Positions 12,115 to 22,202 of a stretch of DNA of 64,000 bases are shown piece after piece. Source of the DNA: Desulfosarcina ovata subsp. ovata (GTDB lineage: Bacteria > Desulfobacterota > Desulfobacteria > Desulfobacterales > Desulfosarcinaceae); the NCBI RefSeq assembly GCF_009689005.1, contig NZ_AP021879.1:2542001-2606000 (forward strand), in the 5' to 3' direction. Each line of letters opens with the position of its first letter. Position 1 is the stretch's first letter. A program made the position numbers and the translations under genes. Below the pieces are notes generated by a model. That model was not told the origin of the DNA, did no database searches, and saw only the letters and a program-made list of their open reading frames with translations.

Positions 12115-12137
12115 AAACCTGCACCCATCGTATAAAC

Positions 12138-12185
12138 AACAAAACGCTTTCGCGGATTGCGGTCCGTAGAAGCGTTTTGTTTTAT
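12138..12185 (+). terminator. Intrinsic terminator of the qrc operon
   Basis: AACAAAACGCTT (12138-12149) pairs with AAGCGTTTTGTT (12170-12181), followed by TTTAT. It ends the qrcABCD transcript 24 bases after the small membrane protein gene. Confidence 0.85.
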
Positions 12186-12194
12186 AGGTGATTA

Positions 12195-12510
12195 GGATCG
12201 GGGGCACTGGTTCAGTTCAATAGGTAATTTAGCTAAGGGGGTACAATTTTTCATTTTAATAACAGATAGTTATATTCAATATGACTGGTTTTTCAAGCCT
12301 GCTATAACATATTGATATTATTGGATCACCTATTGAACTGAACCAGTGCCGGATCGGGAATTTTATTAATTAAACGAAATTGCTTGTTCTTGCGCCCGTC
12401 TTCCGCGTTGCATCAACGGCCACATACTCCCGGTATGCAACCCTTGATGCGCCTTGAAGACGAACACAAGCCCGGCGCAATTACGTTCAATTAATTTCAT
12501 CCCCGATCCT
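12195..12510. repeat. 160-bp palindromic element, copy A, interrupted by a MITE
   Basis: Same element as at 22042-22202. The body (12351-12510) runs from GGATCGGGAATTTTATTAAT to CATCCCCGATCCT. Inverted matches nest inwards: GGATCGGG/CCCGATCC at the ends, AATTAAACG/CGTTCAATT, CGTCTTC/GAAGACG, and GCATCAA/TTGATGC near the centre. The left end was split by the MITE at 12203-12350, which duplicated GGATCGGG. Without the MITE the sequence matches copy B closely. It behaves like a MITE or REP-type palindromic unit. Confidence 0.85.
12203..12350. mobile_element. 148-bp MITE with 23-bp terminal inverted repeats and 8-bp target duplication
   Basis: The left end (12203-12225, beginning GGCACTGGTTCAGTTC) is the exact reverse complement of the right end (12328-12350). 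The element is flanked by GGATCGGG at 12195-12202 and 12351-12358, an 8-bp target duplication. The interior is AT-rich and non-coding. The first seven bases, GGCACTG, match the tip of IS26-type (IS6 family) ends, and that family makes 8-bp duplications, but the remaining bases differ, so the parent transposase is undetermined. It inserted into palindromic element A. Confidence 0.9.
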
Positions 12511-12588
12511 TAGCCGTTTAGGTGGCAGGCTGAAGGGCAGGTCGAATGCGGCCGGTCAAAACATCCCGATTTCCCATCCATGCCCCCC

Positions 12589-15984: not shown

Positions 15985-16008
15985 CAGTTTGTTAATACTT
16001 TTTTTGCT

Positions 16009-16094
16009 GGGGGGGTCCCGCAGACGGGGCTGAGATGGCGCAGCAGCGCCGACCCTTTGAACCTGATGCAGATCATACTGCCGTAGGGAAGCGC
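16009..16094 (+). promoter_or_regulatory. TPP riboswitch (THI element) upstream of thiC
   Basis: The aptamer core is clear: a G-rich P1 strand, ACGGGGCTGAGA, then GACCCTTTGAACCTGATGCA and CGTAGGGAAGC. These match the conserved CUGAGA and ACCUGA elements of TPP riboswitches. Downstream, GGCGGGCC and GGTCCGCC can pair, and the ribosome site of thiC lies in the palindrome GGGGATCCCC next to the ATG, so control could be by terminator formation or by hiding the start. It should reduce thiC expression when thiamine pyrophosphate is high. Confidence 0.93.
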
Positions 16095-16212
16095 GACAAG
16101 AAAATCGTTTTCGCACCTTTCTTTGTCAGGCTTGTCTTTCGGGCGGGCCTTTTTTATTGGTCCGCCGCCGTGCCCCCCTTTTTTATTGAACCCGCTGAAC
16201 AAGGGGATCCCC

Positions 16213-21432: not shown

Positions 21433-22065
21433 ATGAACCTCTCATTTTTCATCAAGGGACTGATTTTCGGTCTTTCCATCGCCGCACCGGTGGGGCCCAT
21501 CGGCATCCTGTGCATCCGCCGAAGCCTGGCCGGCGGCTGGCAGGCCGGTCTGCTCACCGGCATGGGGGCGGCCACGGCCGACGCCGTTTACGGTTGCATG
21601 GCCGCTTTCGGACTGGCCGGCGTCACCGGCGTTCTCGTGGGGCAGCAACTCTGGATTCAACTGATCGGCGGCCTGTTTCTCTGCTGGCTGGGCCTGCGCA
21701 TCCTCCTCAGCCACGGCACGACTCCAGCGGCGGCCAAGGCACCCGGCAGCACCGCCGGCTATCTCTCGGCCCTTTTGCTCACCCTGACCAACCCCATGAC
21801 GATCCTCTCCTTTGCCGCTGTCTTCGCCGGCATGGGCCTGGGCCTTAACAGTGCCGGCCCCACGACCGCAGCATGGCTGGTGGCCGGTGTCTTCTCCGGC
21901 TCCATGGCCTGGTGGGTCATCCTGGCATCGATCAGCGGCCGTTTGCGTGACGGCATCAGCTCCGCGGTCATGGGCTGGATCAACCGGATTTCCGGCCTGG
22001 TCCTGACCGCTTTCGGCCTGGTGGCGATCGCCGGCCGATTAAGGATCGGGAATTTTATTAATTAA
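21433..22065 (+). CDS. LysE/RhtB-family amino acid exporter
   Basis: 210 residues with about six membrane helices. The start has the family hallmark APVGPIGILCIRRSLAGG, and LTLTNPMTILSFAAVFAGMG is the conserved second motif. It should export an amino acid, perhaps under the divergent Lrp-type regulator. The last seven codons and the stop come from palindromic element B (22042-22202), so the native C-terminus has been replaced by RIGNFIN; the helices look complete, and the protein is likely still functional. Confidence 0.88.
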   Translation: MNLSFFIKGLIFGLSIAAPVGPIGILCIRRSLAGGWQAGLLTGMGAATADAVYGCMAAFGLAGVTGVLVGQQLWIQLIGGLFLCWLGLRILLSHGTTPAAAKAPGSTAGYLSALLLTLTNPMTILSFAAVFAGMGLGLNSAGPTTAAWLVAGVFSGSMAWWVILASISGRLRDGISSAVMGWINRISGLVLTAFGLVAIAGRLRIGNFIN

Positions 22066-22202
22066 ACGAAATTGCTTGTTCTTGCGCCCGTCTTCCGCGT
22101 TGCATCAACGGCCACATACTCCCGGTATGCAACCGTTGATGCGCCTTGAAGACGAACACAAGCCCGGCGCAATTACGTTCAATTAATTTCATCCCCGATC
22201 CT
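22042..22202. repeat. 160-bp palindromic element, copy B
   Basis: Near-identical to copy A at 12351-12510. Terminal AGGATCGGG/CCCGATCCT, inner CGTCTTC/GAAGACG, and a perfect central pair GCATCAACGG/CCGTTGATGC (copy A has one mismatch there). It fills the whole gap between the convergent LysE and radical SAM genes: it supplies the stop of LysE and ends at the stop codon of the radical SAM gene. As RNA it folds into one long hairpin on either strand, so it may act as a bidirectional terminator. Confidence 0.88.

Follow-up and report, generated by a model that had tools for sequence, protein, structure and literature searches.

The locus at positions 12192–12512 of the window (the whole stretch of 64,000 nucleotides that was analysed, from contig NZ_AP021879.1 of Desulfosarcina ovata subsp. 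ovata) is a real nested insertion, in which an IS1-type MITE lies within a palindromic, MITE-like element. The nesting is ordinary in kind, and both elements are of known kinds. The unexpected and interesting part of the locus is a conserved IHF-type site on one side of the MITE. The locus pairs a MITE with its parent for an IS1-type element beyond the classical hosts, and puts two mobile families of one IS-rich genome in temporal order. How a host DNA-bending protein may help a MITE that has kept only the ends of its parent can also be tested on it.

Structure of the nested insertion

The locus is laid out as TTA-GGATCGGG-148 bp-GGATCGGG-remaining palindrome-TTA (Table 1). The initial annotation had described a 148-bp element with perfect 23-bp ends between two copies of GGATCGGG, and the coordinates bear this out. 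When the left GGATCGGG was joined to positions 12359–12509, a sequence of 159 bp was obtained that differed by 1 base from the uninterrupted element at 22043–22201. Removal of the insert along with one GGATCGGG thus restores a near-identical palindrome, which supports the annotated nesting inside the left end of a palindromic repeat. The intact copy had also been taken for the pre-insertion state, correctly so, except that it starts at 22043; position 22042, given as its start, is the last base of the TAA flank.

The MITE entered 8 bases inside the end of the palindrome, and those 8 bases were duplicated. Since the outer TTA repeat sits outside the left GGATCGGG, this copy of GGATCGGG is the palindrome's own end. 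The palindrome is the older element and the MITE insertion the later event, because the palindrome's own TTA duplication flanks the whole structure from outside.

Table 1. Positions (window coordinates) of the two elements and their parts.
Feature	Position	Strand	Remarks
Left TTA of the 3-bp target duplication flanking the outer palindrome	12192–12194	.	Direct repeat with 12510–12512; most other copies have TAA/TAA or TTA/TTA
Palindromic MITE-like element, split after base 8; 159 bp once the insert is removed	12195–12509	+	1-base difference from 22043–22201; at least 54 genome copies
GGATCGGG, end of the palindromic element and left copy of the inner MITE's 8-bp target duplication	12195–12202	+	
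Non-coding MITE, 148 bp, 34% G+C	12203–12350	+	Six full-length genome copies; stops in each of the six frames
Left 23-bp terminal inverted repeat of the MITE, GGCACTGGTTCAGTTCAATAGGT	12203–12225	+	
Perfect IHF consensus TATCAATATGTTA, starting 34 bases from the right end of the MITE	12305–12317	-	Position common to related elements
Right 23-bp terminal inverted repeat of the MITE, exact complement of the left	12328–12350	-	
GGATCGGG, right 8-bp target duplication of the inner MITE	12351–12358	+	
Right TTA of the 3-bp target duplication flanking the outer palindrome	12510–12512	.	
Uninterrupted palindromic element, TAA on both flanks	22043–22201	+	

Copies of the MITE in the genome

The full-length MITE is present in six copies in the 7.63-Mb genome, the window copy included, with 82–100% identity to the window copy; three of the six are 100% identical. 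Among the five copies outside the window, the 8-bp flanking repeats matched at 8/8 positions in two and at 7/8 in one, and were lacking in two. Perfect repeats are therefore carried by the window MITE and two others, and the call of a MITE with target duplication is confirmed. When the genome was scanned with the 23-bp end, allowing up to 3 mismatches, 28 matches were obtained, against 0 for the reversed control pattern. These matches, and the five further full-length copies, show that the MITE is not a chance arrangement.

The element is short and non-coding, with stops in all frames and perfect inverted terminal repeats, and its ends are shared with an autonomous element of the same genome. 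No Rfam match was found at the 148-bp MITE or at the palindromic element.

The probable parent insertion sequence

The genome search with the 23-bp end, which the initial annotation had proposed as a check, turned up a full-length parent insertion sequence of 1174 bp. Six such insertion sequences were recovered as pairs of 23-bp ends 1174 bp apart; their ends differ from those of the MITE by 1–3 bases. Each has a transposase frame of 335 amino acids, intact in five of the six. Perfect 8-bp repeats flank three copies, and the other half have no flanking repeats. Terminal repeats of about 20 bp with duplications of 8–9 bp, as in the IS1 family, are thus found in the 1174-bp element (8/8 in 3 of 6 copies).

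The best NCBIfam match of the parent transposase was NF033558 (transpos_IS1), over residues 8–194, with an E value of 5e-17 and a score of 62 bits, short of the curated cut-off of 100; Pfam gave weak zinc-ribbon and integrase-core matches only. We take the C-terminal stretch HVEANNAAMRRKCSAYRRKTNTYAK to resemble the IS1 signature. The closest plasmid homologue, from Thiodictyon, is 59.6% identical, is annotated as an IS1 family transposase, and sits in a 1163-bp element whose ends are GGCACTGGTTCAGTTT and whose 8-bp repeat is ACCGCAGC. Judged by its sequence matches, the parent transposase is probably IS1-type, and not IS6, with a score below the curated cut-off of the IS1 model.

The ends had been likened in the initial annotation to the IS6-family tip, and this did not hold. 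A reading of the MITE as an IS6 (IS26) family member that arrived through replicative IS6-type transposition is extremely improbable. Its first seven bases, GGCACTG, and the 8-bp duplications are IS6-like, and MITEs assigned to the IS6 family, 227 and 336 bp long, are on record (PMC7986276). However, the genomic element with the same 23-bp ends encodes a transposase that matches the IS1 model and has no IS6-type domain in Pfam or NCBIfam, and the homologue with the same ends is annotated as IS1. We therefore reject the IS6 assignment; the shared start and duplication length are superficial.

Like the long single-frame members of the IS1 family, the 1174-bp element (not the MITE) has an NCBIfam IS1 match, one frame in about 1.2 kb and 8-bp duplications. 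It differs from the family in scoring below the IS1 cut-off, and from classical IS1 in that a search near its ends gave no IHF consensus.

Proposed mobilization of the MITE

The transposase of the 1174-bp IS1-family element in the same genome very probably mobilized the MITE in trans. This proposal is drawn from the common terminal repeats, the same 8-bp duplication length, and the presence of several copies, three of them identical. The IS1-type transposase would bind the 23-bp ends and join them to a staggered cut in the target, and repair of the gaps would give the 8-bp repeat. IHF or an IHF-like protein may bend the MITE at bases 34–46 from one end, and so help the assembly or orientation of the complex. 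The outer palindrome arrived earlier, by a transposition of its own that duplicates TAA or TTA. Several observations count against mobilization by the resident element: many genomes contain the MITE with no detected insertion sequence, the transposase stays under the cut-off of the IS1 model, and flanking repeats are missing at half of the insertion sequence copies and at two of the six MITE copies.

The MITE and the 1174-bp element have only the terminal repeats in common. Origin of the MITE by simple internal deletion from the resident insertion sequence was therefore ruled out. The same fact would fit a MITE that is the relic of another, now absent IS1-family element and that the resident one moves poorly or never; so would the 45 bases at MITE positions 104–148, which are 80–91% conserved across several genera and missing from the insertion sequence. 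Nevertheless, the three identical MITEs and the perfect duplications indicate recent movement, and the sole intact matching transposase found is the resident one. We regard such an absent parent as unlikely, and favour mobilization by the resident transposase.

Distribution beyond this genome

The MITE family is, by sequence matches, present in other Desulfobacterales. The 23-bp end was found in 32 stretches of named genomes, which by their titles belong to Desulfobacterales, unclassified Deltaproteobacteria and one Desulfobulbaceae. Many of these ends bound MITEs of 136–148 bp, several with perfect 8-bp repeats; others adjoin transposases 58–92% identical to that of the parent, in other Desulfobacterales.

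When 291 genomes of Desulfobacterales were compared, a MITE-type match was present in 26 (some of the matches are short and perhaps not MITEs) and the transposase in 9. Both occurred together in four genomes besides the one studied here (hypergeometric P 0.0024, for 291 genomes that are not independent). Since some matches are short and related genomes are not independent, we treat this co-occurrence as supporting evidence only.

A conserved IHF-type site on one side of the MITE

A perfect match to the IHF consensus, WATCAANNNNTTR, starts exactly 34 bases from one end in each of the 23 elements of 139–148 bp that formed the first set. A 294-bp element also has the consensus at this distance, and it was missing there in two longer relatives (187 and 197 bp). 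Of five elements fetched later, four had it at position 34; the fifth, a 137-bp element with divergent ends, did not. When 14 MITE sequences less than 95% alike were aligned, the first eight specified columns of the site were invariant, the R column held A or G only, and the four N columns varied. Shuffling of the interior bases of the window MITE produced such a site somewhere in 2.2% of the trials. A second conserved block, AAnnAnnTGTTnT, occupies alignment columns 81–93, in the middle of the element.

From the consensus we infer that IHF would bind the MITE. IHF sites have been reported at both ends of IS1 (PMC11043490), and in vitro binding of IHF is on record for a Neisseria MITE (PMC2229807). 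Near the ends of the resident insertion sequence and of five related loci no such site was found, even when one mismatch was allowed. The genome has 14 matches to HU/IHF-type proteins, none of them above the IHF-alpha cut-off. The columns immediately before the site are likewise conserved in the MITE family, so the block around the site may be a transposase-binding element. Our most tentative proposal, which we hold to be possible but rather doubtful, is that the one-sided bending site, absent from the parent, maintains the MITE family across Desulfobacterales: by recruiting a host factor the MITE would outcompete its parent for the parent's own transposase.

Comparison with known MITEs

Like the inner MITE, MITEAba12 of Acinetobacter (PMC6382973) is small, non-coding and AT-rich, its identity to its proposed parent is confined to the terminal repeats, it has the duplication length of that parent, and it has spread through many genomes of a family. 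It differs in its length (113 bp), 16-bp repeats, 9-bp duplications and parent (ISAba12). The Correia/NEMIS elements of Neisseria (PMC2229807) are of similar size (about 105–155 bp), and the site of their long form binds IHF in vitro; their ends and target are different, however, and the IHF site lies in a 50-bp segment of the long form only. QMITE2 of Coxiella (PMC10969869) shares repeats of 23–29 bp, duplications of 7–9 bp, and the role of a MITE as the target of another mobile element. In that case IS1111 entered via recognition of a palindrome in the MITE, whereas here one MITE lies in another and nothing points to targeting. Compared by its description (PMC10969869), Chunjie of Geobacter uraniireducens is likewise a family of MITEs whose copies, intact or partial, are numerous within a single genome, but it is longer (178–235 bp). 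In the searchable literature on MITEs in Desulfosarcina and sulfate reducers, no description of the MITE or the palindrome was found.

The outer palindromic element

A pattern spanning the centre of the palindrome gave the copy number listed in Table 1; on the assembled strand, 39 of the 54 copies point one way and 15 the other. Both ends were recognizable in 49 copies. In 46 of these the 3-bp flanks form an exact direct repeat: 42 were scored by script, correction of an end by eye added 3, and the window copy was added by leaving out its insert. The matching flanks are TAA/TAA or TTA/TTA, with CAA/CAA as the one exception. None of the 49 copies combined a TAA flank with a TTA flank. These direct flanks rule out that the palindrome is no more than an extended inverted repeat. 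The outer palindrome has the features of a MITE: inverted repeats at its termini, ends that are fixed, and a target duplication.

It is very unlikely that the palindrome is instead a REP-type or RNA-level element, RAYT-mobilized or terminator-like, and not a MITE. Its strong hairpin is what such an element would have (the 22043–22201 copy, folded as single-stranded RNA, gave -73.1 kcal/mol, z -8.7), as are the many copies and the fact that some relatives have the central part alone in common. Against it, direct TAA/TAA or TTA/TTA repeats flank nearly all copies, and the mixed TAA and TTA flanks expected from extension of the palindrome were never seen. Target duplication is, moreover, not known for REP/RAYT elements.

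Some IS5-family and PIF/Harbinger-type elements typically duplicate a 3-bp TWA target. No autonomous parent of the palindrome was found at 30 of the 108 DDE_Tnp_1 loci or at six lone ends, and no DDE_Tnp_4 gene was found in the genome. It may be noted that 108 DDE_Tnp_1 matches in 7.6 Mb amount to a high insertion-sequence load.

Relatives of the palindrome show 72–88% identity within the genus, and looser ones occur within the family. Shortened copies of about 34–48 bp retain both ends. In the very short forms L193:501-534, L194:494-537 and L195:506-549 (genome positions 420500, 4194893 and 5453405, respectively), 34–44 bp are left with both ends kept, as if the body of the hairpin had been deleted. 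Palindromes with a similar centre and other ends (GGCGATT...AATCGCC) lie beside TAA in L180, L164, L138 and L139, the first two at genome positions 4884082 and 3217886. This suggests a larger set of palindromic elements with differing ends.

Surroundings of the locus

At 12133–12186 the sequence around AAAACGCTT/AAGCGTTTT forms an inverted repeat with a T-rich stretch behind it, and this resembles an intrinsic terminator. It comes after a short frame that itself lies downstream of genes for molybdopterin oxidoreductase, Fe-S and NrfD proteins. A TPP riboswitch lies at 15999–16106 (Rfam RF00059, 75.6 bits).
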